Shown in pieces: positions 11,061 to 22,777 of a stretch of 64,000 bases of DNA. The position numbers and the translations under genes are program-made. Under the pieces are notes generated by a model, which did no database searches, was not told the origin of the DNA, and saw only the letters and a list, made by a program, of their open reading frames with translations. Position 1 is the stretch's first letter, and the number at the start of each line of letters is the position of its first letter. The DNA is taken from positions 1 to 64,000 of the forward strand of contig JAAVIC010000027.1 in the NCBI GenBank assembly GCA_014799385.1, read 5' to 3'. This stretch comes from Oscillospiraceae bacterium. GTDB lineage: Bacteria > Bacillota > Clostridia > Oscillospirales > Ruminococcaceae.

Positions 11061-11537
11061 ATGCAGGAACAAGAACACGTTTTATCCGTAAAGGTTGCAA
11101 ATAACAATGGCGTTTTACAGCGCGTTTCGGGGCTTTTCAGCCGCCGCTGCTTCAATATCAAGAGCCTGAATGCCGCCGAAACCGAAATGTCGAATGTTTC
11201 GCGGCTGACGATTGTCGTTGCGGGAGATTTGAAAGTCCTGACGCAAATCAAAAATCAGCTTATGAAACTGTATGACGTATACGAAGTAAGGATTCTTGAA
11301 GACGCTGTTACGCGTGAGCATATTCTTATCCGCGCGGGGAAATCTGCGGAGGATCGGCATAAAATCATTGAAATCGCGAACCTCTATCGAGCAAAGCCCG
11401 TTGACGTAGGCGCGGACTCAATTATGCTGGAACTTACGGGCGAACCGGCGAAAATCGACAGTTTCATCGACCTGTTGAAACCGTTCGGAATCATCAAGAT
11501 GGTGCGCTCGGGAATCACGGCACTGGAGCGCGATTAA
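11061..11537 (+). CDS. ilvN: Acetolactate synthase small (regulatory) subunit
   Basis: A 158-residue regulatory subunit that stimulates IlvB and gives feedback inhibition by branched-chain amino acids. An N-terminal ACT domain (VKVANNNGVLQRVSGLFSRR and the following IKSLNAAETE) covers about residues 8-80; the C-terminal half has the family stretch ELTGEPAKIDSFIDLLKPFGI. It follows ilvB with only two bases between stop and start. Confidence 0.95.
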   Translation: MQEQEHVLSVKVANNNGVLQRVSGLFSRRCFNIKSLNAAETEMSNVSRLTIVVAGDLKVLTQIKNQLMKLYDVYEVRILEDAVTREHILIRAGKSAEDRHKIIEIANLYRAKPVDVGADSIMLELTGEPAKIDSFIDLLKPFGIIKMVRSGITALERD

Positions 11538-11566
11538 TCGGCATTTTGCGCGAAGGAGGCGGAGTT

Positions 11567-12487
11567 ATGAACATACTTCACCTGAAATACGCGGTTGAGG
11601 TAGCGAAAACCCAATCCATAAGCAAGGCTGCGGAGAATCTGTATATGGGGCAGCCCAACCTTTCACGCGCCATCAAGGAGCTTGAGGAATCACTGGGAAT
11701 CACGATATTCCGCCGAACCTCAAAAGGCATCACCACCACTCCCGATGGCGAAGAGTTTCTGCGGCGCGCGCGGCGGATAGTTGAACAAATCGAAGAGGTC
11801 GAGGAAATCTACCGTAACGAGAAAATCAACAAGCAGGTCTTTTCGGTATGCGTGCCGCGCGCGGGGTATTTTTCACAGGCGGTGACAAGATTCTCTCGAA
11901 AGCTATCCCCTGATGAACCGGCGAATATTTCGTTTATGGAAACAAACATTCAGGAAGCGATTTCCGCAGTTTCGCGCGGAGATTGTTCTATTGGATTCGC
12001 GCGATACAGTACAGAGTTGGAAAAGCATTTCAAGGAACTGTTCGAGGAAAAGAAGCTGGTTTTTGAGATAGTGGCTGAATTTTCGCCGCTGTTAGCGACA
12101 AAGAAAGATAGCTCACCTGGGAAATCGGAAAAAATTTCCACCGAAATCTTGCGAAAATGCGTTGAAATCACGTTTGGAGATTTATTTGTTCCCTCCCCCG
12201 CCGACACGAAAAAATCCGATTCGGCGCAACTCTCAAACAAACGGATTTTTGTCTATGATCTAACCACGGGATTTTCGCTTTTGGAAAATGTTCCCAATTC
12301 ATATATGTATACCTCGCCGCTGCCGAAAAGCATTATCGAACACTATGGACTTACTTCCAGGAGAATCGATTTGCGCGGCTTTACTTGCAAGGATATACTG
12401 ATTTACCGACGAGACTATAAGCTCTCCGAATTGGACAAAAGATTCATTACGGAGGTATGCAATGCAAAGCGCGAATGCTTTCCATAA
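11567..12487 (+). CDS. LysR family transcriptional regulator
   Basis: A 306-residue regulator with the N-terminal winged HTH of LysR proteins: LKYAVEVAKTQSISKAAENLYMGQPNLSR then ELEESLGITIFRR. The C-terminal part is a weakly conserved co-inducer domain. The ATG at 11567 is chosen because AAGGAGG lies eight bases upstream. It is 29 bases downstream of ilvN and in the same direction, so it is probably cotranscribed and may regulate ilvBN or another target; unlike most LysR genes it is not divergent from its neighbour. Confidence 0.88.
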   Translation: MNILHLKYAVEVAKTQSISKAAENLYMGQPNLSRAIKELEESLGITIFRRTSKGITTTPDGEEFLRRARRIVEQIEEVEEIYRNEKINKQVFSVCVPRAGYFSQAVTRFSRKLSPDEPANISFMETNIQEAISAVSRGDCSIGFARYSTELEKHFKELFEEKKLVFEIVAEFSPLLATKKDSSPGKSEKISTEILRKCVEITFGDLFVPSPADTKKSDSAQLSNKRIFVYDLTTGFSLLENVPNSYMYTSPLPKSIIEHYGLTSRRIDLRGFTCKDILIYRRDYKLSELDKRFITEVCNAKRECFP

Positions 12488-12507
12488 TTTGTAAATTTTG
12501 ACGCAAT

Positions 12508-12559
12508 CGATATGTGAAATAATGATATGAGATATGCTTTATTTACATTTCACATATCG
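12508..12559. repeat. 13-bp perfect inverted repeat upstream of the adhE operon
   Basis: CGATATGTGAAAT at 12508-12520 is repeated in perfect inverted form as ATTTCACATATCG at 12547-12559, with 26 bases between. No T-tract follows, so it is a poor terminator for the lysR gene. Its right arm contains the candidate -35 of the adhE promoter, so it may be a pair of regulator half-sites instead. Confidence 0.7.
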
Positions 12560-12577
12560 TATATATTGTGTTAAAAT
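12549..12577 (+). promoter_or_regulatory. Candidate promoter of the adhE-hydrogenase operon
   Basis: TTCACA and TAAAAT with a 17-base spacer, each one base off consensus. The -10 is covered by the Rex-like operator, which would allow repression when NAD is oxidised. Confidence 0.55.
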
Positions 12578-12585
12578 ATTAACAA
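12568..12585. promoter_or_regulatory. Rex-like operator
   Basis: GTGTTAA-AATA-TTAACAA matches the clostridial Rex consensus TTGTTAA-N4-TTAACAA at 13 of 14 fixed positions. Rex represses fermentation genes such as adhE at low NADH/NAD, which fits the genes downstream. The site overlaps the candidate -10 and the predicted transcription start. Confidence 0.7.
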
Positions 12586-12595
12586 GGACGGAAAT

Positions 12596-12724
12596 ATGGG
12601 TTTTTTGTCGAAAAAAACGGCATTTTCCGAACACATAATTAAAAAGGCTCACATGGAAATTTGTGACAATCAGCTTGACATATCAGACGTATATCCGCGA
12701 CACCCGATAATAAGCGGGCTGTAA
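12596..12724 (+). CDS. Possible 42-aa leader peptide ahead of adhE
   Basis: A 42-codon open frame starts with ATG seven bases after AAGGA and ends 87 bases before adhE. The peptide begins MGFLSKKTAFSEHIIKKAH. No family is recognised. It begins directly after the Rex-like operator, so it would be the first translated item on the operon mRNA. It fills much of an otherwise gene-free 324-base stretch (12488-12811), but such a short frame could also be chance. Confidence 0.3.
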   Translation: MGFLSKKTAFSEHIIKKAHMEICDNQLDISDVYPRHPIISGL

Positions 12725-12760
12725 CGGCTATAACGGCTATTTTAGAGTTATTGCGCCTAT

Positions 12761-12787
12761 TTGAATGTGCGCCGTGTAAGCTATAAT
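12761..12787 (+). promoter_or_regulatory. Weak second promoter candidate before adhE
   Basis: A perfect TATAAT at 12782-12787 preceded by TTGAAT with a short 15-base spacer, 25 bases before the adhE start. The spacing is suboptimal. Confidence 0.35.
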
Positions 12788-12811
12788 TATATATTTAAGG
12801 AGAAGATGACT

Positions 12812-15448
12812 ATGAATTACGAAATCGTTGACAGCGCCGAGAGCTTTGAAGCTGCGCTTGCCAGAGTCAGAGAAGCGCAGAAAAAATTCGGCGAGTTCAC
12901 TCAAGAACAGGTCGATAAGATTTTCCTCGCTGCCGCTTCAGCAGCTAACAAGCAGAGAATCCCTCTTGCGAAGATGGCTGTCGAAGAAACAGGCATGGGT
13001 ATTGTTGAGGACAAGGTTATCAAAAACAACTATGCCTCGGAGCATATCTACAACGCTTATAAGGACGTAAAGACCTGCGGCGTTATCGAAACCGATGAAT
13101 CTTTCGGAATCACCAAGATTGCGGAGCCTATCGGCGTTATCGGCGCGGTTATTCCGACCACAAACCCCACATCTACCGCTATTTTCAAGACCCTTATCAG
13201 CTTGAAAACCAGAAACGGTATTATCATCAGCCCGCACCCCCGTGCAAAGAACTGCACTATCGAGGCGGCTAAGATCGTTTATGAGGCAGCTGTAAAGGCG
13301 GGCGCTCCCGAGGGCATTATCGCGTGGATTGACGTACCTTCGTTGGATCTTACCAACCAGTTGATGAGAGATGTAGACCTCATTCTCGCAACGGGCGGTC
13401 CCGGAATGGTTAAGGCTGCATACTCTTCTGGTACTCCGGCGCTCGGCGTAGGCGCGGGCAACGCTTCCGCGATTATCGACCCCTCCGCTGACATTATAAA
13501 TGCTGTTAACTCGATTCTTCACTCCAAGACGTTCGATAACGGTATGATCTGCGCAACCGAGCAGACCGTTATCGCGGATAAGACCATCTACAACGAGGTC
13601 AAGAATGAGTTCATCAAGAGAGGCGCGTACTTCCTGAACGAAAAGGAAGCGCAGATGATCAGAAATACAATGCTTATCAACGGCGCGCTTAACGCGAAAA
13701 TCGTTGGTCAGCGTCCCGTAACCATCGCTAAGATGGCTGGATTTGAGATTCCCGATGACGTTAAGGTTCTCATCGGTGAGGCGACAAGCACCGATCCCGA
13801 TGAGGCATTCGGTCACGAGAAGCTCACCACTATTCTCGGTATGTATAAGTCCGAGGATTTCAACAACGCTCTGGATATCGCGGACACTCTGCTTCGCAAT
13901 AACGGCGGTCTGGGTCACACTGCGGTTCTGTGGATCAATCCCGGCGAGAGAGAGAAGCTCCTCAAGTTCGCACACAGAATGAAGACCTGCCGTCTTATCG
14001 TCAATACTCCGTCGTCTTTGGGCGGTATCGGCGACCTTTACAACTTCAAGTTTGCTCCTTCGCTTACTCTGGGCTGCGGCTCGTGGGGCGGCAACTCCGT
14101 ATCCGAAAACGTTGGAGTTAAGCACCTTATCAATATCAAGACCGTTGCCGAGAGGAGAGAGAATATGTTGTGGTTCCGCGCACCCGAAAAGGTTTACATC
14201 AAGAAAGGCTGTCTGCCTGTTGCTCTTAAGGAGCTTAAGGACGTTCTGGGCAAGAAGAGAGCGTTTATCGTTACCGACTCGTTTATGTTCAAGAGCGGGT
14301 TTACAAAGCACATCACCGACAGACTTGAGGAAATGGGCATTACTTACACCATCTTCTCCGATGTTGAGCCTGATCCTTCGCTGAAGTCCGCACAGATGGG
14401 TGCAGAGGCTATGCGCAAGTTTGAGCCTGACTGCATTATCGCAATGGGCGGCGGTTCGGCTATGGATGCCGGCAAGATCATGTGGGTTCTGTATGAGCAC
14501 CCCGATGCAGACTTCCAGGATATGGCAATGCGCTTTATCGATATCCGCAAGAGAGTTTATACCTTCCCGCATATGGGCGACAAGGCATACTTCATCGCGG
14601 TTCCGACCTCTGCGGGTACAGGTTCCGAGGTTACTCCGTTCGCGGTAATCACCGACCAGGATACCGGTGTTAAGTATCCGTTGGCTGACTATGAGCTGAT
14701 GCCGAAGATGGCTATCGTAGATCCCGATTTGATGGAAACCGGTCCTAAGGGACTGACCTCCGCTTCCGGTATTGACGCGGTTACTCACAACCTCGAAGCT
14801 ATCGCTTCCGTTATGGCAACCGACTATACGGACGGTTTGGCTAAGCAGTCTCTGAAGATGATCTTCAACTATCTGCCCAGAGCTTACGATGCCGCTCCCT
14901 CCAAGGATACCCCCAACCCCGCTCCCGACCACGAGGCTCGCGAGAAGATGGCAAACGCAGCTACAATGGCTGGTATGGCTTTCGCAAACGCATTCCTCGG
15001 TATTTGCCACTCTATGGCACACAAGCTCGGTGCGTTCCACCACATTCCTCACGGTGTTGCCAACGCTCTGCTGATTGACGAGGTTATCCGCTTTAACTCC
15101 GCTGAGAAGCCCACAAAGATGGGTACTTTCTCGCAGTACACTCACCCGCACACTCTGCGTCGTTACGCTGAGGTTGCCGAAGAGCTTGGCTGCAAGGGCA
15201 AGACCGATGAAGAGAAGGTTGAGGCTATGATCGCTAAGATCGATGAGCTTAAGGATTACATCGGCATTAAGAAGACTATTCGCGACTATGTTCCCGATGA
15301 GAAGGACTTCCTTGACAGACTCGATGCAATGGTTGAGCAGGCATTCGATGACCAGTGCACCGGCGCTAACCCGCGCTATCCGCTGATGAGCGAAATCAAG
15401 CAGATATACCTGAACACATACTACGGCAAGACCACAAAGCTTTGCTGA
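12812..15448 (+). CDS. adhE: Bifunctional aldehyde/alcohol dehydrogenase AdhE
   Basis: An 878-residue enzyme converting acetyl-CoA to acetaldehyde and then ethanol, oxidising two NADH. The N-terminal CoA-acylating aldehyde dehydrogenase (about residues 1-440) has the catalytic Cys at 247 in FDNGMICATEQ and the IPTTNPTSTAIFK cofactor region. The C-terminal iron-dependent alcohol dehydrogenase has GGGSAMDAGK, PTSAGTGSEVTPFAV and the iron ligands in SGIDAVTHNLEA and CHSMAHKLGAFHHIPHG. AAGGAGA lies nine bases before the ATG at 12812; an ATG six bases earlier is too close to it. It is the first large gene of the Rex-controlled operon. Its codon use is notably more regular than its neighbours, as expected for a highly expressed gene. 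Confidence 0.97.
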   Translation: MNYEIVDSAESFEAALARVREAQKKFGEFTQEQVDKIFLAAASAANKQRIPLAKMAVEETGMGIVEDKVIKNNYASEHIYNAYKDVKTCGVIETDESFGITKIAEPIGVIGAVIPTTNPTSTAIFKTLISLKTRNGIIISPHPRAKNCTIEAAKIVYEAAVKAGAPEGIIAWIDVPSLDLTNQLMRDVDLILATGGPGMVKAAYSSGTPALGVGAGNASAIIDPSADIINAVNSILHSKTFDNGMICATEQTVIADKTIYNEVKNEFIKRGAYFLNEKEAQMIRNTMLINGALNAKIVGQRPVTIAKMAGFEIPDDVKVLIGEATSTDPDEAFGHEKLTTILGMYKSEDFNNALDIADTLLRNNGGLGHTAVLWINPGEREKLLKFAHRMKTCRLIVNTPSSLGGIGDLYNFKFAPSLTLGCGSWGGNSVSENVGVKHLINIKTVAERRENMLWFRAPEKVYIKKGCLPVALKELKDVLGKKRAFIVTDSFMFKSGFTKHITDRLEEMGITYTIFSDVEPDPSLKSAQMGAEAMRKFEPDCIIAMGGGSAMDAGKIMWVLYEHPDADFQDMAMRFIDIRKRVYTFPHMGDKAYFIAVPTSAGTGSEVTPFAVITDQDTGVKYPLADYELMPKMAIVDPDLMETGPKGLTSASGIDAVTHNLEAIASVMATDYTDGLAKQSLKMIFNYLPRAYDAAPSKDTPNPAPDHEAREKMANAATMAGMAFANAFLGICHSMAHKLGAFHHIPHGVANALLIDEVIRFNSAEKPTKMGTFSQYTHPHTLRRYAEVAEELGCKGKTDEEKVEAMIAKIDELKDYIGIKKTIRDYVPDEKDFLDRLDAMVEQAFDDQCTGANPRYPLMSEIKQIYLNTYYGKTTKLC

Positions 15449-15460
15449 TAAAACCGGCAG

Positions 15461-15490
15461 TTCGCGTGCCGCAATTTTGCGGTACGTGAA
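15461..15490 (+). other. Intercistronic hairpin between adhE and the kinase gene
   Basis: TTCGCGTGCCGCA pairs with TGCGGTACGTGAA (13 bp including two G-U pairs) around a four-base loop. No T-run follows directly, so it may be an RNA-processing or stability element that sets different levels of adhE and downstream mRNA. Confidence 0.5.
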
Positions 15491-15531
15491 TATGCCTAAA
15501 TTCAAAAATAATTTTTAGGAGGAAAAGCTAT

Positions 15532-16278
15532 ATGTCTGATAGAATTATTGCCGTTCGTACCCGTAAGACGGTTTACCATGAAGGCGATACCGCTGTAAAG
15601 GTATTTGACGAGGATTACGCAAAATATGACATTCTGAACGAGGCTCTTAACCAAGCTCGTGTTGAAAATATAGGAATAAACGTACCCAAGGTTCTCGAAG
15701 TTAAGATGATTGACGGTAAGTGGGCTATCGTTTCCGAATTTGTTCAGGGAAAGACACTCGCGCAGCTTATGAAGGACAATCCTCAGAAGAAGGATGAGTA
15801 CTTAAATATGTTCGTTGACCTGCAAATGCAGGTTCACGCGGCAAAGTGCCCGATGCTCAACAAGCTGAAGGACAAGATGAGCCGCAAAATCAGCGAGGCT
15901 GATTTGGACGCTACCACCCGTTACGAGCTGCACACCCGCCTGGAGTCTATGCCTAAGCACGTTAAGGTTTGCCATGGCGACTTCAACCCCTCCAACATTA
16001 TTGTTAAAGATGATGGAACACCGTACATTCTTGACTGGAGTCACGCTACACAGGGTAACGCTTCCGCAGATGTTGCGAGAACCTATTTGCTGTTCTGGCT
16101 GAACGGCGAGATTGATATGGCTGAGAAGTATCTCGACCTGTTCTGCAAGAAGAGTGACACCGCAAAGCAGTATATCCAGAAGTGGCTGCCTATCGTTGCG
16201 GCTTCGCAGTCCGTAAAGGGCAAGCCCGAGGAGCGCGAGTTCCTGATCAACTGGGTAAACGTTGTTGAATACGATTAA
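15532..16278 (+). CDS. APH/choline-kinase-fold phosphotransferase
   Basis: A 248-residue small kinase of the aminoglycoside phosphotransferase fold. The catalytic loop is HGDFNPSN (about residues 147-154) and the metal-binding motif is ILDWSHA (about 163-169), both standard for APH-type kinases; the N-terminal lobe is short. AGGAGG is well placed before the ATG. It sits between adhE and hydrogenase genes, 15 bases before the ferredoxin gene, so it is part of the fermentation operon. The substrate is unknown: it could be a small molecule, or, given the phosphatase gene in the same operon, a protein. An antibiotic-resistance role is unlikely from context. Confidence 0.8.
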   Translation: MSDRIIAVRTRKTVYHEGDTAVKVFDEDYAKYDILNEALNQARVENIGINVPKVLEVKMIDGKWAIVSEFVQGKTLAQLMKDNPQKKDEYLNMFVDLQMQVHAAKCPMLNKLKDKMSRKISEADLDATTRYELHTRLESMPKHVKVCHGDFNPSNIIVKDDGTPYILDWSHATQGNASADVARTYLLFWLNGEIDMAEKYLDLFCKKSDTAKQYIQKWLPIVAASQSVKGKPEEREFLINWVNVVEYD

Positions 16279-16293
16279 TAGGAGGAATCTCAA

Positions 16294-16533
16294 ATGAAGG
16301 TTACTGTTTGTATTGGAAGCTCTTGCCATCTTAAGGGTTCGCGCCGTGTTGTTGAAGGTATTCAATACCTTATCGCGGAAAACAACCTTAAGGACAAGGT
16401 GGAGCTTGGCGGTACTTTTTGTATGAATAACTGCCAGAACGGCGTATGCGTTACCGTTGATGACAAGAGTTTCTCGGTTTCGCCCGATACAGTCGAGGAT
16501 TTCTTCAAGACGAATATCCTTGCCAACGTGTAA
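16294..16533 (+). CDS. Thioredoxin-like [2Fe-2S] ferredoxin
   Basis: A 79-residue electron carrier like the C-terminal domain of NuoE/HydC proteins. It has CIGSSCHLKG (C6 and C11) and TFCMNNCQNGVC (C43, C47), giving the C-x4-C ... C-x3-C ligand set of thioredoxin-fold 2Fe-2S proteins. It follows the kinase gene by 15 bases with GGAGG upstream. It most likely passes electrons to or from the hydrogenases encoded next. Confidence 0.9.
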   Translation: MKVTVCIGSSCHLKGSRRVVEGIQYLIAENNLKDKVELGGTFCMNNCQNGVCVTVDDKSFSVSPDTVEDFFKTNILANV

Positions 16534-16551
16534 TTTGACGAATATCTCCAC

Positions 16552-16581
16552 TTCCCGCTGCAATATATTTTGTGGCGGGAA
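16552..16581 (+). other. Intercistronic hairpin before the sensory hydrogenase gene
   Basis: TTCCCGC pairs with GCGGGAA around a 16-base loop in the 89-base gap between the ferredoxin and hydrogenase genes. No T-run follows; it may be an mRNA stability element. Confidence 0.35.
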
Positions 16582-16622
16582 ATTGTCGGTTGTTATGCAT
16601 TAATCAATAAGGAGTAATTTTT

Positions 16623-18296
16623 ATGGCGGAATTTTTGAAGCTCAAAAAATCGAACTGCAAGAACTGTTATAAGTGCATACGGCACTGCCCCGTCAAATCA
16701 ATCCGATTTTCGGGAAATCAAGCGAATATTATCGGCGATGAGTGCATTCTCTGCGGACAGTGCTTTGTGGTTTGCCCGCAAAACGCAAAAGAGATTGCCG
16801 ACTCAACCGAGCGCGTGAAATATCTCATCACCTCGGGCGAGAAAGTTTATGCTTCCGTTGCGCCGAGCTTTGTGGCGAATTATGGCGTTGGCATCGATTC
16901 CCTTACCGAAGCACTTAAGAAGCTTGGGTTTGCTGGTGCGGAGGAAACCGCCATCGGAGCGACAATTGTAAAGACGGAGTATGAGCGTCTGATTCGCGAG
17001 GACAAGCGCGATGTGTTGATTTCATCTTGCTGCAACTCTGTGAATCTGTTGATTCAGAAGTACTATCCCGAAGCGCTGGAATATCTTGCGGACGTGCTCT
17101 CCCCTATGCAGGCACACTGCCAAGACCTCAAAAATCGTTACAGCGGCTGCAAGACCGTATTTATCGGTCCGTGCGTTTCCAAGAAAGAGGAAGCGGCGCG
17201 GTATGGCGGATACACAGACGATGTCCTCACATTCGAGGAGCTGACCAACTGGTTCAAGGAAGCGGGTGTTACTCCCGAAAAGTCCATTGATAACAATAAT
17301 CAGAGCCGCGCGCGGTTGTTCCCGACAACCGGAGGAATTTTGCGTACAATGCGCGAACGCGACCCCGACTTTACATATCTCGCGTTTGACGGAGTGGAAA
17401 ACTGCAAAGAAGCACTTGAGGAAATCCTTGAGGGCAAGCTGCACAACTGCTTCATTGAGATGTCTGCTTGCGCCGGAAGCTGCGCCAACGGACCGGTTAT
17501 GGAGAAATACAAGAAGTCTCCGGTTGCGTCCGCGATGGCAATCAACAAATACGCGGGCAGCGAGGATTATGTTGTTAAGCAACCCGACAAGAGCGAATTG
17601 CACAAGAAAATGACATTCCTGAACGCCAAGTCATCAATGCCTACCGAAGAGGAAATTACTGCTATCCTGCGGAAAATGGGCAAGACACGTCCCGATCAAG
17701 AGCTGAACTGCGGCTCCTGCGGATATGAAACCTGCCGCGAGAAAGCTATCGCGATTTACCACGGAAAAGCAGACATTTCAATGTGTCTGCCGTTCCTGAA
17801 GGACAAAGCGGAGAGCTTTTCGGACAATATTATTTCCAGTTCGCCGAACGCTATTATTGCGATGAATGAGAATCTTGAGATTCAGCAGATCAACAAATCG
17901 GCGCTGCAGCTTATGAATATTTCCAGAGCATCGGACGTTATGGGTGAGCAGATTATCCGCTTGCTTGACCCTGCCGTGTTTATAGAGGTTATGCAAAGCA
18001 ACAAACCCATTCATAATGAGCGGAGATACTTGACAGAATATGACAAATTCGTTGAGCAAACGGTAATTTACGACTCCGAATATCGGATTGTAATCTGCCT
18101 TATGCGCGATGTGACCAATGAGGAAAAGGCGAAGGTCCGCAAGGAGAACGTTGGCAGAACCACTGCGGATATTGCCGATAAGGTGGTTGAAAACCAGATG
18201 CGAATCGTCCAGGAAATTGCCTCGCTGTTGGGCGAAACCGCCGCCGAAACAAAGGTTGCGCTTATGAAACTGAAGGAGTCGATTGCCAATGAATAA
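16623..18296 (+). CDS. PAS-containing [FeFe] hydrogenase, putative sensory (HydS-type)
   Basis: A 557-residue protein. Residues 1-55 carry two 4Fe-4S motifs (C12/15/18/22 and C41/44/47/51). The H-cluster domain follows, with L1 as SSCCNSV (C136, C137), L2 as GPCVSKKEEA (C184) and L3 as EMSACAGSCANG (C283, C287). Next is a further Cys motif, CGSCGYETC ... C (363-388), then a PAS domain (about 398-495) and a helical tail. This order (hydrogenase, FeS domain, PAS) is that of group C hydrogenases thought to sense H2 or redox state. L1 lacks the Pro and Trp of the catalytic TSCCPxW motif, in keeping with low turnover. It overlaps the phosphatase gene, which suggests signal output through it. Confidence 0.9.
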   Translation: MAEFLKLKKSNCKNCYKCIRHCPVKSIRFSGNQANIIGDECILCGQCFVVCPQNAKEIADSTERVKYLITSGEKVYASVAPSFVANYGVGIDSLTEALKKLGFAGAEETAIGATIVKTEYERLIREDKRDVLISSCCNSVNLLIQKYYPEALEYLADVLSPMQAHCQDLKNRYSGCKTVFIGPCVSKKEEAARYGGYTDDVLTFEELTNWFKEAGVTPEKSIDNNNQSRARLFPTTGGILRTMRERDPDFTYLAFDGVENCKEALEEILEGKLHNCFIEMSACAGSCANGPVMEKYKKSPVASAMAINKYAGSEDYVVKQPDKSELHKKMTFLNAKSSMPTEEEITAILRKMGKTRPDQELNCGSCGYETCREKAIAIYHGKADISMCLPFLKDKAESFSDNIISSSPNAIIAMNENLEIQQINKSALQLMNISRASDVMGEQIIRLLDPAVFIEVMQSNKPIHNERRYLTEYDKFVEQTVIYDSEYRIVICLMRDVTNEEKAKVRKENVGRTTADIADKVVENQMRIVQEIASLLGETAAETKVALMKLKESIANE

Positions 18297-19461
18297 TTTG
18301 TGCGCCGATATTGGCTGGAAAAGCCTGAACCATGTTGGAGAACAGCTCTGCGGCGATCACATTGAGATTATCGAAATGCCGGACGATTCCACGGTTTTGG
18401 TGCTGGCGGACGGCTTGGGAAGCGGTGTTAAGGCATCTATCCTCTCAACGCTCACCTCAAAAATCATCGCTACTATGACCTCTCAGGGCATTTCGTTGGA
18501 AGAATGTGTAAAGACCATCGCCGCTACCCTGCCCATCTGCAAGGTTCGCGATGTGGCTTACTCCACGTTCACGATTATCCGCTTGATTCACAACGAAGAG
18601 GCGGAAATTATCTGCTATGACAATCCCGATGTAATTATGTTCAGGAATGGACAACAATACGAAATTCCGCTCCAGAATATGAACATCGAGGGCAAGCTGA
18701 TTCATAAGGGGCACATAATGCTCCAGGAAAATGATACGTTTATTGCGATGAGTGACGGCTGTATTCACGCAGGTGTGGGAATGTCGCTGAATTTCGGCTG
18801 GGAGCGCAAGGAAATCGCCGAATTTATGGAAACGCTCTCTGATGTGGGATTTACGGCGAAAACGCTTGCAACCGTGCTTACCGACCAGTGCTTGAAGCTG
18901 TACGGCGGCAATCCCGGAGACGATACGACCGCTCTTGCTGTGAGAATCCGTGCGCGGCAGCAGATAAACCTGATGATAGGTCCGCCCTCCGACCGCAACG
19001 ACTGCGAGAAGATGGTTTCACTGTTCCTGTCAAAGGGCGGAAAGCACATCGTTTGCGGCGGAACAACGTCCACAATCGTATCGAAGTACCTCAACAAGCC
19101 GATCGTTCCGAATATTAACTATTTCGACCCCGAAATTCCCCCGACAGCGACAATCGAGGGTGTGGATCTGGTGACTGAGGGCGTTATCACGATAAACCGC
19201 GTGAACGAATACGCAAAGGACTATCTCTCGGACAACGAGAGCTATAAGCAGTGGAACTACAAACAGGACGGCGCGGCACTTATTTCGCGTATGCTGTTTG
19301 AGGAAGCCACAGATATAAACTTCTATGTCGGCAGAGCAATTAATCCCGCCCATCAGAACCCAAATCTGCCAATTAATTTTAACATTAAAATGCAGCTTGT
19401 AAGCGAGCTTTCGGAAAGCTTGAAAAGGATGGGCAAAAAAATTAAGGTAAACTATTTTTAA
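18289..19461 (+). CDS. PP2C/SpoIIE-type serine phosphatase linked to the sensory hydrogenase
   Basis: A 390-residue protein with a PPM-fold phosphatase domain in its first 225 residues: LADGLGSG, AMSDGCIHAG and NPGDDTTALAV supply the metal-binding aspartates. A further 160-residue C-terminal region (IVCGGTTSTIVSKYLNK onward) is not part of the phosphatase fold and I do not recognise it. The ATG at 18289 overlaps the end of the hydrogenase gene by eight bases, with AAGGAG upstream inside that gene. Phosphatases beside PAS-hydrogenases are known in clostridial clusters. The partner is probably a phosphoprotein or anti-sigma-antagonist-like switch; none is encoded nearby. Confidence 0.88.
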   Translation: MNNLCADIGWKSLNHVGEQLCGDHIEIIEMPDDSTVLVLADGLGSGVKASILSTLTSKIIATMTSQGISLEECVKTIAATLPICKVRDVAYSTFTIIRLIHNEEAEIICYDNPDVIMFRNGQQYEIPLQNMNIEGKLIHKGHIMLQENDTFIAMSDGCIHAGVGMSLNFGWERKEIAEFMETLSDVGFTAKTLATVLTDQCLKLYGGNPGDDTTALAVRIRARQQINLMIGPPSDRNDCEKMVSLFLSKGGKHIVCGGTTSTIVSKYLNKPIVPNINYFDPEIPPTATIEGVDLVTEGVITINRVNEYAKDYLSDNESYKQWNYKQDGAALISRMLFEEATDINFYVGRAINPAHQNPNLPINFNIKMQLVSELSESLKRMGKKIKVNYF

Positions 19462-19473
19462 GGAGAAGCTATT

Positions 19474-20949
19474 ATGGAAACACCCGTGCAGAACAAACCT
19501 GCCGCAAAAAGGCAATATAAATTCGACACCAAGGTTCAATACTTAAAATATAAGGTGTTGAGGGAGGTCGCGCGCGAGGCGTGGGCGGGAACACTGCTTG
19601 AAAACATTCTCGACATTCCAAAGATAATTGTACCCGGAAAGGTTCCGACAATGCGCTGCTGCGTTTACAAAGAGCGCGCTATTCTCGGAGAGCGCGTTAA
19701 AATCGCAATGGGCGGCGACAAGAACAATCCAAATGTTATCGAGGTAATCGAAACCGCCTGTGACGAGTGTCCGATGGGCGGATACGAGGTGACGAACGCT
19801 TGCCGCGGCTGTCTGGCGCACCGCTGCGAGGACGCTTGCCGCAAAGGCGCGATTTCGTTCGACCACAACCAAAAGGCACATATCGACAAGTCGAAATGTG
19901 TGGAGTGCGGAATGTGCGCGAAAAACTGTCCGTATTCCGCAATTATGAACTTCAAGCGTCCGTGTGTAAGCGCGTGCAAGGTGAACGCAATCTCCATGAA
20001 CGAAGATAAAGCGGCTAAAATCGACAACAGCAAGTGCATTTCTTGCGGAGCGTGCGTTTATCAGTGCCCGTTCGGCGCAATTACAGACAAGTCGTTCATC
20101 ATCAACGTAATCGATATGATTCAGAAGAGCGATGATAATAACAAATACAAGGTCTACGCGCTGGTAGCTCCGGCAATTGGGTCGCAGTACTCCTACGCAA
20201 AGTTAGGTCAGGTGATTCAGGGAATCAAGGAGCTTGGATTCTTCACGACTATCGAGGCGGCTCTCGGCGCAGATATGGTCGCGTGGATGGAAAGTAAGGA
20301 GCTTGCGGAATGCGGCGACTACCTCACATCAAGTTGCTGCCCCGCGTTTGTGGACTTTATCCACAAGAATTTCCCCGATATGGTGGAGCACATCTCGCAT
20401 AACCTCTCCCCTGCCGCAACTATCGCAAGGTACATAAAGTCCACCGATCCAAGCAGCAAGATTGTTTTCATTGGTCCGTGCACCGCGAAAAAGATGGAGT
20501 TCCAAAAAGAAAGCGTTCGTCCGTATATTGATTGTGTAATCACATTTGAGGAGCTTCAAGCGCTGTTTGACAGCAAGGATATCGACATCACCACCCTTTC
20601 CGAGGCTCATCTGGACAACGCGTCCTACTTCGGACGTATCTTCGCGCGAAGCGGAGGTCTGGCTGACGCGGTTAAACAGGCGCTTACAGAGCAGAATCTG
20701 AACGATTTCGAGCTTAAGGCTGTTTCCTGTGACGGAATCGAAGCGTGCAAGGCGGCACTGCTCAAGAAGAACAAGGGCGTTCTGGATGCAAATTTCATCG
20801 AGGGTATGGCGTGTGTCGGCGGCTGCATAGGCGGCGCGGGCTGCCTTACTCACGGAGAAAAGAACAAGGCAGAGGTCGACAAGTACGGCAAGGAGGCTCT
20901 TGAAAAGACGATCAGCGAGGCAATCAGCGTGGTAAAGCTGCCGGAATAA
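19474..20949 (+). CDS. [FeFe] hydrogenase with N-terminal ferredoxin domains (group B-like)
   Basis: A 491-residue hydrogenase. The N-terminal 205 residues hold many Cys, including CDEC, CRGCLAHRCEDAC, CVECGMCAKNC and CISCGACVYQC, enough for at least three 4Fe-4S clusters. The H-cluster motifs are canonical: TSSCCPAF (C288, C289), GPCTAKKMEF (C336) and FIEGMACVGGCIGG (C447, C451). Unlike the upstream hydrogenase it has no PAS domain, and unlike group A enzymes it starts with a long leader carrying CC and CDEC motifs, as in group B proteins. It is the likely catalytic H2-evolving partner. It starts 12 bases after the phosphatase gene with AAGGAG upstream. Confidence 0.9.
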   Translation: METPVQNKPAAKRQYKFDTKVQYLKYKVLREVAREAWAGTLLENILDIPKIIVPGKVPTMRCCVYKERAILGERVKIAMGGDKNNPNVIEVIETACDECPMGGYEVTNACRGCLAHRCEDACRKGAISFDHNQKAHIDKSKCVECGMCAKNCPYSAIMNFKRPCVSACKVNAISMNEDKAAKIDNSKCISCGACVYQCPFGAITDKSFIINVIDMIQKSDDNNKYKVYALVAPAIGSQYSYAKLGQVIQGIKELGFFTTIEAALGADMVAWMESKELAECGDYLTSSCCPAFVDFIHKNFPDMVEHISHNLSPAATIARYIKSTDPSSKIVFIGPCTAKKMEFQKESVRPYIDCVITFEELQALFDSKDIDITTLSEAHLDNASYFGRIFARSGGLADAVKQALTEQNLNDFELKAVSCDGIEACKAALLKKNKGVLDANFIEGMACVGGCIGGAGCLTHGEKNKAEVDKYGKEALEKTISEAISVVKLPE

Positions 20950-20962
20950 TAAGGAGATATGA

Positions 20963-21448
20963 ATGCTCAGTAAAATTCTGGATAAATCCTCTTGCGCGAA
21001 ATGCCGTGTCTGCTGCGGATTCGTGGAGGACGATAAATGGGAAATTCCACTGATTTTCACGGAAATGCGCAGCGCGGTGGAGCAAAAACTCGGTGTGAAG
21101 CTGATTCCGCGCGGCAATGAGTTCGTATTTGATATGGAGTTTGATGATGATAAGCTCGTGTACTGCCCCGCCGTTTCGGAAAACGGCTGCACTCTCGGCG
21201 AACTTAAACCGTTCGACTGTATGATATGGCCGTTCCGTGTAAACCGGCTTGGAGAAAGGCAAGTAATTACAGTATCCCCGGTGTGCGAGGCGGTAAGCGA
21301 TTTGCCGCTGTCAAAGATTACGGAATTTGTCCACGCGGACGGTTTCGCGGAGCGACTGTTCGAGGAATCCCGCAAACACCCCGATATGGTGAAATCGTAC
21401 ATTGACGGTTATCCGATTGTTGCGGTGGAAAATGTAAACCAAAAATAA
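20963..21448 (+). CDS. YkgJ-like cysteine-cluster protein
   Basis: A 161-residue protein of the YkgJ/CxxC cluster type (putative zinc- or iron-binding). CAKCRVCCG near the N-terminus, CPAVSENGC and later single Cys (DCMIWPFR, PVC) form the family pattern of about eight Cys. It is 13 bases behind the hydrogenase gene with AAGGAG upstream and ends the operon before a hairpin. Role unknown; with its position a function in metal-cluster delivery or protection is possible but unproven. Confidence 0.8.
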   Translation: MLSKILDKSSCAKCRVCCGFVEDDKWEIPLIFTEMRSAVEQKLGVKLIPRGNEFVFDMEFDDDKLVYCPAVSENGCTLGELKPFDCMIWPFRVNRLGERQVITVSPVCEAVSDLPLSKITEFVHADGFAERLFEESRKHPDMVKSYIDGYPIVAVENVNQK

Positions 21449-21458
21449 CATAATTGTA

Positions 21459-21489
21459 ATCTCCGGTTGGTTGAAATCCACCGGAGATT
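21459..21489 (+). terminator. Probable terminator of the adhE-hydrogenase operon
   Basis: AATCTCCGGT pairs with ACCGGAGATT (10 bp) around an 11-base loop, ten bases after the last stop codon. The following tract is only AT-rich, so termination may be partial. Confidence 0.6.
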
Positions 21490-21494
21490 ATTGT

Positions 21495-21608
21495 ATAATA
21501 GAAGCATAAGCTTTTATTATACTTTTTGTCCACGCGCATACGCTCACTACACTCGCTCCGCGCGGTTATGGACAATTATACAATAAATTCTGAGAATTTA
21601 TTGTATAA
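21495..21608. repeat. Composite hairpin repeat, copy 1
   Basis: Three consecutive hairpins: 21495-21520 (ATAATAGAAGC with GCTTTTATTAT), 21526-21575 (TTGTCCA with TGGACAA, plus CGCG pairing inside), and 21576-21608 (a perfect 15-bp stem). The first two recur at 61153-61239. No coding frame is supported here. It lies between the hydrogenase operon and the XRE-AbrB gene. Confidence 0.75.
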
Positions 21609-21639
21609 TAATGATGTATGATGAGATGAGGTGAAAGAA

Positions 21640-22026
21640 ATGGACTTTAACAACTTAAAATTATTCCGAAAGAAATTCGGATTAACACAAGAACAAATCG
21701 CGGAACGGCTTGGGGTATCGCGCCAGGCGGTCGCAAAGTGGGAACGCGGCGATTCGCTGCCCGATATTGACAACATCATTGCATTGGCAGATATGTACGA
21801 GGTTACGATCGATTCACTTGTTCGTAATATGACAACAATAGGTGACACAACCGATGAAAAAAAGCATATGTTTGGGGTGACAAAGGTCAACGATAAGGGG
21901 CAAATCACTCTGCCGAAAAAATGCCGAGATGTGTTTGACATCAAAACCGGAGACGCACTTCTGCTGCTCGGGGACGAGGAACGTGGATTGGCACTTGTGA
22001 AGATTGATGAAATTATTGATAAATGA
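21640..22026 (+). CDS. XRE-AbrB fusion transcriptional regulator
   Basis: A 128-residue protein with two DNA-binding domains. Residues 1-62 are an XRE/Cro HTH (FRKKFGLTQEQIAERLGVSRQAVAKWERGDSLPD). Residues about 78-128 are a SpoVT-AbrB swapped-hairpin domain (VTKVNDKGQITLPKKCRDVFDIKTGDALLLLGDEERGLALVK). The ATG at 21640 is preferred, with GAGGTGA five bases upstream. It ends ten bases before the ABC ATPase start, so it probably regulates that exporter. Confidence 0.88.
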   Translation: MDFNNLKLFRKKFGLTQEQIAERLGVSRQAVAKWERGDSLPDIDNIIALADMYEVTIDSLVRNMTTIGDTTDEKKHMFGVTKVNDKGQITLPKKCRDVFDIKTGDALLLLGDEERGLALVKIDEIIDK

Positions 22027-22036
22027 GGTAGCAATT

Positions 22037-22777
22037 ATGTTAGCGATCGAAACTAAAGTCTTGACAAAAAAGTACAAGTCCAAAACCGTAGTTGACGGTC
22101 TGAATCTGACGGTCGAGGAGGGTGAACTTTTCGCGCTGTTGGGTGTGAACGGAGCGGGAAAAACCACGACGATCCGTATGCTGACTTGCCTGGCGAAGCC
22201 ATCAAGCGGAGAATGCTCCGTATGCGGACATAACTGCGTTTCGGATTCCGCGGCAGTTAAGAAGTTGGTGGGAATCTCGCCGCAGGATACCGCTGTTGCG
22301 GAGAACCTTACCGTTCGTGAAAATCTGGAGCTTATGTGCGGAATTTACGGATTTTCACGCGAAAAAGCCCAATCACGAATCAACGAGATGATTGAGCTGT
22401 TCAATATGCAAGATGTAGAAAATTCACGTGCGAAAACGCTTTCCGGCGGTTGGAAACGCAAGCTGTCCATTGCGATGGCATTGATTTCCGAGCCGAAGCT
22501 GCTGTTTCTGGACGAACCTACGCTTGGTCTGGACGTAATCGCGCGGCGGGAACTTTGGAAAGTAATCCGCGAGTTGAAAAGTCGCATTACCATTATACTG
22601 ACGACCCACTATATGGAAGAGGCTGAGAACCTTGCCGACCGTATAGCTGTTATGATCAGCGGGCATATGGCAGCATTGGGAACACTCTCCGAACTGGAGC
22701 AGCAAACAGGCGAGAGTGGTCTGGAAAATGTTTTCGTGAAGATTACGGATAACTTCGGGAAAGGAGAATCAAAATGA
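22037..22777 (+). CDS. ABC transporter ATP-binding protein
   Basis: A 246-residue ATPase of an ABC-2 type exporter. Walker A is GVNGAGKTTT, the Q-loop is in ISPQDTAV, the signature is LSGGWKRKLSIAMAL (an LSGGW variant of LSGGQ), Walker B is LLFLDEPTLGLD, and the H-loop is in LTTHYMEEAE. The ATG at 22037 has GAGGT upstream. It overlaps the permease start by four bases (ATGA). Likely substrates are drugs, lipids or peptides; not resolvable. Confidence 0.92.
   Translation: MLAIETKVLTKKYKSKTVVDGLNLTVEEGELFALLGVNGAGKTTTIRMLTCLAKPSSGECSVCGHNCVSDSAAVKKLVGISPQDTAVAENLTVRENLELMCGIYGFSREKAQSRINEMIELFNMQDVENSRAKTLSGGWKRKLSIAMALISEPKLLFLDEPTLGLDVIARRELWKVIRELKSRITIILTTHYMEEAENLADRIAVMISGHMAALGTLSELEQQTGESGLENVFVKITDNFGKGESK

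Follow-up and report, generated by a model that had tools for sequence, protein, structure and literature searches.

What is a kinase of the APH phosphotransferase family doing inside a fermentation operon? The question is raised by a 64,000-nucleotide stretch of an Oscillospiraceae bacterium genome (assembly GCA_014799385.1, contig JAAVIC010000027.1, positions 1 to 64,000 of the forward strand; hereafter the window), in which profile searches with Pfam and NCBIfam placed seven genes at 12812-21448 on the plus strand: adhE, the kinase gene, a [2Fe-2S] ferredoxin gene, hydS for a PAS-containing [FeFe] hydrogenase, a PP2C phosphatase gene, a second [FeFe] hydrogenase gene and a gene for a small Cys-motif protein. 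An earlier note on this DNA had read the kinase and the phosphatase as a pair placed around a hydrogen sensor, forming a reversible phosphorylation switch. Our analysis leans, with somewhat better than even confidence, toward another reading: a Rex-repressed electron-disposal operon of two modules, in which the kinase is the regular genomic companion of AdhE. The cluster itself is already known; the new point is the conserved, uncharacterised kinase that accompanies AdhE. Clusters of this class let fermenting bacteria shed surplus electrons as ethanol or hydrogen; many anaerobes make their ethanol mainly through AdhE, and the enzyme is a target of biofuel work. If the kinase controls AdhE or its pathway, this would account for its presence beside some sensory hydrogenases without its being bound to them.

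We found that the kinase gene (15532-16278, plus strand) is tied more strongly to adhE (12812-15448, plus strand; NF010378, 1339 bits against a cut-off of 951, with an ATG at 12812) than to the hydrogenase genes, and this weakens the idea of a switch. Genome contigs were scanned for the best 80 of 101 relatives of the kinase (63-99% identical), a choice that favours close relatives. AdhE lay directly upstream in 79 of these 80 loci, the sole exception being L080; among the 68 loci with at least 3 kb of sequence downstream, HydS followed the kinase in 24 and was absent from 44. In a class sample of 245 genomes, picked regardless of the kinase, 57 genomes contained orthologues at 61 places when at least 48% identity was required, a threshold that stands clear of a tail at or below 33%; these places include a paralogue in the window's own genome (49%) and two fragments. 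This sample entered 77 of 78 kinase rows (a second fragment from G039 was omitted), 16 of which fell below 48% identity and were not counted as orthologues. At 49 of the 61 places the gene immediately before the kinase, on its strand, was AdhE, with gaps of 9-288 bases, and HydS and PP2C were found within 12 kb in 20 and 18 of the 61, respectively, contig ends not being allowed for. Viewed from the other side, the kinase stands directly behind 49 of 82 AdhEs of at least 62% identity and behind none of 41 more distant AdhEs.

The same pattern appeared when presence in the genome was scored (HydS at E 1e-60, PP2C at E 1e-10, AdhE at E 1e-150). Of the 57 genomes with the kinase, 54 carry AdhE, the other three carry HydS, and 30 are without both HydS and PP2C. 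The association of the kinase with AdhE had an odds ratio of 41 (p 2e-19) and that with HydS one of 3.2 (p 3e-4), p values that are indicative only because the sampled genomes are related. Conversely, HydS occurs without the kinase in 41 of 68 genomes, and PP2C likewise in 41 of 68. These totals represent 68 of 78 genomes with a HydS match and 68 of 78 with a PP2C match, the ten most distant of each having been dropped (34-36% identity for HydS, 24-30% for PP2C); no dropped genome carried an orthologous kinase, and the count of 30 stays. A Monoglobus record has the ferredoxin-HydS-PP2C-hydrogenase block and no match to the kinase. Taken together, the earlier pairing of kinase and phosphatase around a sensor is weakly supported, and the related expectation that the kinase would be conserved beside hydrogenase genes in relatives holds for about a third of them and fails for the rest; a few kinases adjoin HydS with no AdhE.

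An APH-family kinase directly behind adhE is conserved in Clostridia and, in a few cases, in spirochaetes and an actinomycete. In 80 genomes from the family of Treponema parvum, both kinase orthologues had AdhE upstream and one also had HydS; T. parvum itself, the chosen centre of that sample, is one of the two. A further Treponema locus (L050) holds the whole cluster. A Collinsella aerofaciens record contains the AdhE-kinase pair, with no hydrogenase genes among those annotated nearby. A search of 299 genomes of the phylum gave a single hit beyond the class (G529), again with AdhE upstream, and neither ferredoxin nor HydS was found in the 1.5 kb of sequence downstream of its kinase. Two variants of the arrangement were also observed: in L070 (10001-12000) a single adhE is followed by two copies of the kinase (72% and 68%), separated by about 0.5 kb, and at G207:C1:318340-321963 (L092) the order is reversed, with the kinase about 310 bases before adhE.

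Phylogenies gave a similar picture. On an AdhE tree of 120 rows, linkage to the kinase required 7 changes, compared with 31.6 in shuffles; this tree leaves out L135, the same place as L092, and L107, L110 and L132, which have less than 1 kb downstream. On a kinase tree of 102 rows, which include hand-picked exceptions and that one repeated place (L135 = L092), AdhE adjoins 92 rows, and the label 'AdhE plus HydS' required 15 changes, at least 5 of them forced by starred branches. From these sequence comparisons, the hydrogenase block looks like an add-on to the AdhE-kinase pair in some lineages, or like a block often lost from it.

The kinase itself belongs, by its sequence, to the APH phosphotransferase family and not to the Hanks type. 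It passes the Pfam models for APH (PF01636, 55.1 bits against a cut-off of 23.2) and RIO1 (41.3 against 22), and remains below the cut-off of Pkinase PF00069 (19.1 against 31.7 bits), as does the Ruminococcus albus orthologue at 21.2 bits; the reading as a Hanks-type Ser/Thr kinase was rejected on this account. No NCBIfam model reached its cut-off, the top one being TIGR02172 with 73.7 of 228.2 bits. Residues K23, E37, H148-G149-D150, N155 and D168, which make up the Lys-Glu pair, HGDxxxxN and DW motifs that we take to be catalytic, were invariant in 48 of 48 aligned rows, and mean column identity was 79%; for these reasons we predict that the kinase should be an active enzyme. The best profile match of known structure was the choline kinase LicA (profile positions 127-193, E 8e-6), followed more weakly by an APH-family protein and by Hanks-type kinases. 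A single-sequence search again ranked LicA first (0.0025), with aminoglycoside kinases next at 0.01. The neighbourhoods of paralogues offered no hint of a substrate: the 49% paralogue in the window's genome (G000:C29:3551-4282; L091 3530-4285) has an SCP2-domain gene on one side and, on the other, a gene that we identified by eye as SecA-like, and the other paralogues adjoin unrelated genes.

We then considered how the locus may be controlled. The seven genes lie on one strand with short gaps, as had been noted earlier; these measure 83, 15, 89, -8, 12 and 13 bases in operon order. Their order is not a matter of chance, because it is kept in many other genomes. A promoter-like site that carries a Rex-type operator (12549-12585) stands before the unit and a strong terminator-like hairpin (21493-21522) after it; a single operon is likely on these sequence grounds. 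The promoter-like site (12549-12577, plus strand) reads TTCACA-17-TAAAAT with TG before the second hexamer and has 10 of 12 consensus matches. It ranks second of 23 sites in 11400-22100 and is weak evidence on its own, because shuffled sequences give 13.1 such sites. On its -10 hexamer lies the Rex-type operator GTGTTAAAATATTAACAA (12568-12585, no strand assigned), which has one mismatch to TTGTTAA-N4-TTAACAA, taken here as the Rex operator consensus. Its first base, 12568, is the start that the earlier note gave for the unit, although adhE itself begins at 12812. Allowing up to three mismatches gives 5 Rex-type matches in the window where 3.9 are expected, for which reason weight is given to the close match only; matches at one mismatch or fewer numbered zero in 30 simulated 64-kb sequences.

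Relatives carry the operator as well. In 40 of 68 relatives, the 400 bases before adhE contain a Rex box with at most two mismatches, compared with 0.9% of 340 base-shuffled stretches, and such a box is found both in AdhE-kinase-only loci (24 of 37) and in loci with HydS (13 of 26). The window's genome encodes Rex elsewhere (G000:C12; NF003990, 271.7 bits, cut-off 233). By clustering, 15 of 100 loci contain a Rex gene of their own, directly upstream of adhE in 13 of the 15 as judged by displayed order; 14 of these are 39-53% identical to R. albus Rex and the one in L050 is 24% identical, and one of the locus-borne genes (L093) was tested with NCBIfam. A promoter-borne operator, together with a Rex gene encoded in the same genome, is what would be predicted for a member of the Rex regulon.

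At the other end, the intrinsic terminator-like site (21493-21522, plus strand) has a 13-bp stem followed by TTTTT. This stem is the longest among 13 scanned sites (shuffles gave 12.3 sites), and the surrounding stretch, 21446-21530, has a z score of -8.4. Two further RNA hairpins lie within the unit on the plus strand. The long one in the adhE-kinase gap (15456-15496) has no U-tract directly after it; the 87-nt stretch of this gap folds at -30 kcal/mol (z -5.5), with 0 of 200 shuffles as stable, and the hairpin may set the ratio of adhE to kinase. The one in the ferredoxin-hydS gap (16552-16581) has a 12-bp stem, and its stretch folds at -26.4 kcal/mol (z -3.5), with 1 of 200 shuffles as stable.

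The remaining genes of the cluster, apart from the last, form a coherent block. Among 25 complete operons, pairwise distances of the ferredoxin, HydS, PP2C and the second hydrogenase (HydB1) correlate with one another at 0.94-0.97. The ferredoxin gene (16294-16533, plus strand) encodes a thioredoxin-like [2Fe-2S] protein of 79 amino acids (PF01257, 26.7 bits, cut-off 24.8). HydS (16623-18296, plus strand; PF02906 at 161.6 bits, with PF04060) carries a C-terminal PAS domain at residues 401-496 (PF00989, 29.0 bits, cut-off 22.6), two N-terminal Cx2Cx2Cx3C ([4Fe-4S]) motifs and a Cx2Cx4Cx16C motif at 363-388; these cysteine motifs are all invariant in 35 of 35 rows. Three positions around the H-cluster were compared as well. 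The position of M353 is Gly in all 35 rows, and that of M497 is Ser in 31 and Asn in 4. The position of C299, whose equivalent we take from the motif to be Cys136 in the window protein, keeps Cys in 33 of 35 rows, including the window. The PAS domain and the cysteine motifs support the assignment of HydS, by sequence, to the group C-type sensory [FeFe] hydrogenases, for which a PAS domain, [4Fe-4S] motifs, the C-terminal Cx2Cx4Cx16C and altered M353 and M497 positions are described (PMC8163306); over the three H-cluster positions the picture is mixed. Since Cys occupies the C299 position in 17% of sensory [FeFe] hydrogenases (PMC10055695), the window HydS, in keeping this proton-transfer Cys at residue 136, is unlike most that have been described.

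HydS and PP2C belong together: PP2C lies within 3 kb of HydS in 66 of 70 HydS rows, in agreement with the earlier description of a sensory PAS-hydrogenase adjoined by a PP2C gene. Four of the genomes dropped from the presence counts (G063, G144, G163 and G244) have remote HydS and PP2C genes that adjoin each other. The phosphatase is of the SpoIIE type (18289-19461, plus strand; PF07228, 57.6 bits, cut-off 25) and matches a solved SpoIIE structure at 4e-9. D25, D43-G44, D158-G159 and D213-D214, to which we presume metal-binding or catalytic roles, were invariant in 23 of 23 rows. The gene probably starts at the ATG at 18289, which leaves the same 8-base overlap with hydS that is found in R. 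albus; our searches used the TTG at 18283 as the first codon of PP2C and 12815 as that of AdhE. No Pfam model matches the C-terminal domain of about 168 residues (approximately residues 225-392; window 18955-19461), although its conservation is on a par with that of the catalytic domain (mean top-residue share 0.78 vs 0.75). A weak profile match to phosphoheptose isomerase (E 0.004) hints at a SIS-like fold. The second hydrogenase (19474-20949, plus strand) is of group B type by NCBIfam, passing the monomeric model TIGR04105 (FeFe_hydrog_B1) with 563 bits against a cut-off of 450. R. albus HydA2 (L101 13121-14557) passes this model as well, with 577 bits; the co-culture paper classes it as group A1 (PMC6776011).

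The last gene (20963-21448, plus strand) is a lineage passenger, present in 4 of 80 kinase loci. The translation contains, by eye, the Cx2Cx2CC that we take to be a YkgJ-type motif, so the earlier label of YkgJ-like stands for the motif, while no Pfam or NCBIfam match was found at E 0.001. Upstream of adhE, at 11546-12487, lies a gene for a LysR-type regulator; 27 of the 80 kinase loci, like R. albus, have a relative no more than 2.5 kb ahead of adhE.

Building on the observed gene content, order and orthology, the operator-like and terminator-like sequences and the two-module pattern, we propose the following scheme. AdhE and the APH-family kinase would form one module; the ferredoxin-HydS-PP2C-hydrogenase genes, a hydA2/hydS (hfs-like) block, would form the other. 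A rise in NADH/NAD+, for example upon H2 build-up, would cause Rex to leave 12568-12585, and the ethanol and H2 outlets would be made together; this step is suggested by the operator, by its conservation and by the responses of R. albus and Clostridium thermocellum given below. HydS would read H2 or the redox state and, through its PAS domain, might act on PP2C, whose gene overlaps its own. The kinase would act on the AdhE side, tuning flux whether or not HydS and PP2C are present. Because of the gene neighbourhood, AdhE or its pathway is our first choice of target; a small molecule comes close behind, and a target shared with PP2C is placed lower. That the kinase phosphorylates AdhE itself is a tentative proposal and the least certain step of the scheme. 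A fuller version is unlikely: a dedicated AdhE kinase that phosphorylates AdhE or controls its filaments and thereby sets ethanol flux, with the downstream H2-sensing phosphatase module serving in some lineages as an H2-controlled brake or release.

Several observations weigh against this two-module reading with an AdhE-companion kinase. Members of the APH family act mostly on small molecules. No AdhE residue cleanly splits 83 kinase-linked from 29 unlinked AdhEs (8 far AdhEs were left out), and we therefore suggest no phosphosite; the candidates were rejected, as only clade-confounded columns differed. Among the close AdhEs, 33 of 82 have no kinase directly downstream. One kinase directly precedes a group B-type hydrogenase gene (G234:C11, L090), and the window genome's paralogue adjoins neither AdhE nor HydS. 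Five of the 61 kinase places adjoin HydS with no upstream AdhE recorded (G010:C13, G008:C72, G177, G236 and G126): the G008 contig begins 443 bases upstream of the kinase, in G177 the kinase is preceded by 1190 bases of contig that include a LysR gene, G126 and G236 have upstream sequence and still no AdhE, and G010:C13 is a second kinase copy. Finally, in the 25 complete operons the kinase distances correlate at 0.73-0.76 with the hydrogenase module and at 0.53 with AdhE; leaving out two divergent loci (23 operons) brings these to 0.66-0.72 and 0.69, about equal, and the partial correlations (0.46 for AdhE, 0.36 for HydB1) are mixed.

These correlations, and four of the places with HydS and no upstream AdhE in the available sequence (G010:C13, G177, G236 and G126), are what would be expected if kinase and PP2C opposed each other on one target, both set by HydS, such that H2 or redox state tuned AdhE and H2 output. 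The joint presence of kinase, HydS and PP2C in the window, in R. albus and, by annotation, in C. thermocellum is in keeping with this idea, as is the finding that deletion of hfsA or hfsB in Thermoanaerobacterium raises alcohol dehydrogenase activity and ethanol, partly via higher adhE expression (PMC5707799). We nevertheless consider such a switch improbable: the 30 genomes with neither HydS nor PP2C, the 41 of 68 in which HydS, or PP2C, occurs without the kinase, and the missed Pkinase cut-off all speak against it, and the C. thermocellum hfs deletion removed Clo1313_1796-1793 (PMC5707799), which would have left the kinase, 1797, in place. The idea also resembles a proposal already published, since, according to PMC5707799, Zheng et al. 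2014 suggested for R. albus that HydS relays its signal to a Ser/Thr kinase next to it.

Two other explanations are somewhat better placed than the switch. The hfs result suggests that the sensory module has a regulatory role, and it weighs against the view that Rex alone explains the H2/redox response, with HydS and PP2C tuning something else or serving as electron-transfer partners of the hydrogenase. Rex boxes and the Rex genes in loci and genome mean that Rex could explain the H2 response by itself: the operator is at the promoter and in relatives, rex sits inside the R. albus cluster, and the whole C. thermocellum region goes down upon treatment with furfural, which is said to deplete NAD(P)H (PMC3848806). 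Given the effect of the hfs deletions on ethanol yield and adhE expression, we find Rex alone rather doubtful. The kinase might instead have no regulatory role and serve ethanol fermentation by phosphorylating a small molecule, whether to clear a substrate, salvage a cofactor or repair damage, as family membership, the LicA and aminoglycoside kinase matches, and catalytic residues kept while no protein-kinase cut-off is reached would allow. Yet no family model assigns it a substrate, and its other recurrent metabolic neighbours in 100 loci are lineage-bound and name none: 12 loci have an ilvB-like gene upstream, and in 8 loci of Lachnospiraceae an amylase-like gene, identified by eye, lies downstream. 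This explanation, too, falls on the unlikely side. The two-module operon with an AdhE-companion kinase remains the reading that we favour.

How does the locus compare with known systems? A tblastn search of plasmid records with the kinase and HydS found plasmid pRUMAL01 of R. albus 7 (NC_014824.1), where RUMAL_RS17350-17385 encode rex-adhE-phosphotransferase-fdx-fdx-hydS-SpoIIE phosphatase-hydA2, with a LysR gene before rex. Six of the seven window genes have orthologues there in the same order at 62-72% identity: AdhE 69%, kinase 67%, ferredoxin 70%, HydS 62%, PP2C 68% and hydrogenase 72% (RUMAL_RS17385). The ferredoxin counterpart is the first of the two R. albus ferredoxin genes, the second being absent from the window. 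The window further differs in having rex elsewhere in the genome, the small Cys-motif gene after the hydrogenase, and 83 bases with a hairpin between adhE and the kinase where R. albus has only 15; it lies on a 240-kb contig of a 2.7-Mb assembly, and the R. albus cluster on a plasmid. In content and count, RUMAL_RS17350-17385 fits the published putative eight-gene cluster, whose members include adhE, a putative sensory hydrogenase and a hydrogenase that uses ferredoxin only, and which is reported to fall 111-fold in the presence of an H2-consuming partner (PMC6776011). This response to H2 removal, of what is probably the orthologous cluster, supports the link to AdhE and H2 output that the earlier note had drawn.

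The kinase gene, which that note regarded as the least described part of such an operon, was already annotated both in R. albus and in C. thermocellum, where the series runs rex Cthe_0422, adhE 0423, aminoglycoside phosphotransferase 0424, the small protein 0425, HydS 0426 and SpoIIE 0427, followed by the hydrogenase genes (PMC3848806; classification in PMC3561251); the whole stretch is Cthe_0422-0430. In the searchable literature, which leaves most subscription papers outside it, we found no function assigned to Cthe_0424 and no mention of AdhE phosphorylation or of an AdhE kinase. After furfural, expression drops jointly across the C. thermocellum rex-adhE-phosphotransferase-HydS-SpoIIE-hydABC region (PMC3848806). 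By annotation, this cluster has the same layout as the window, but ends in a trimeric bifurcating hydrogenase where the window has a monomeric one. The four-gene hfsABCD operon of Thermoanaerobacterium, likened by description, contains the PAS hydrogenase HfsB, the serine-phosphatase-like HfsC and the hydrogenase HfsD, as in the window, and no kinase is named in it (PMC11837493). HydS of Thermotoga maritima shares with the window protein the PAS domain, the C-terminal Cx2Cx4Cx16C and the changes of M353 to Gly and M497 to Ser (PMC8163306), but has Ala at the C299 position (PMC10055695), where the window HydS keeps Cys136.

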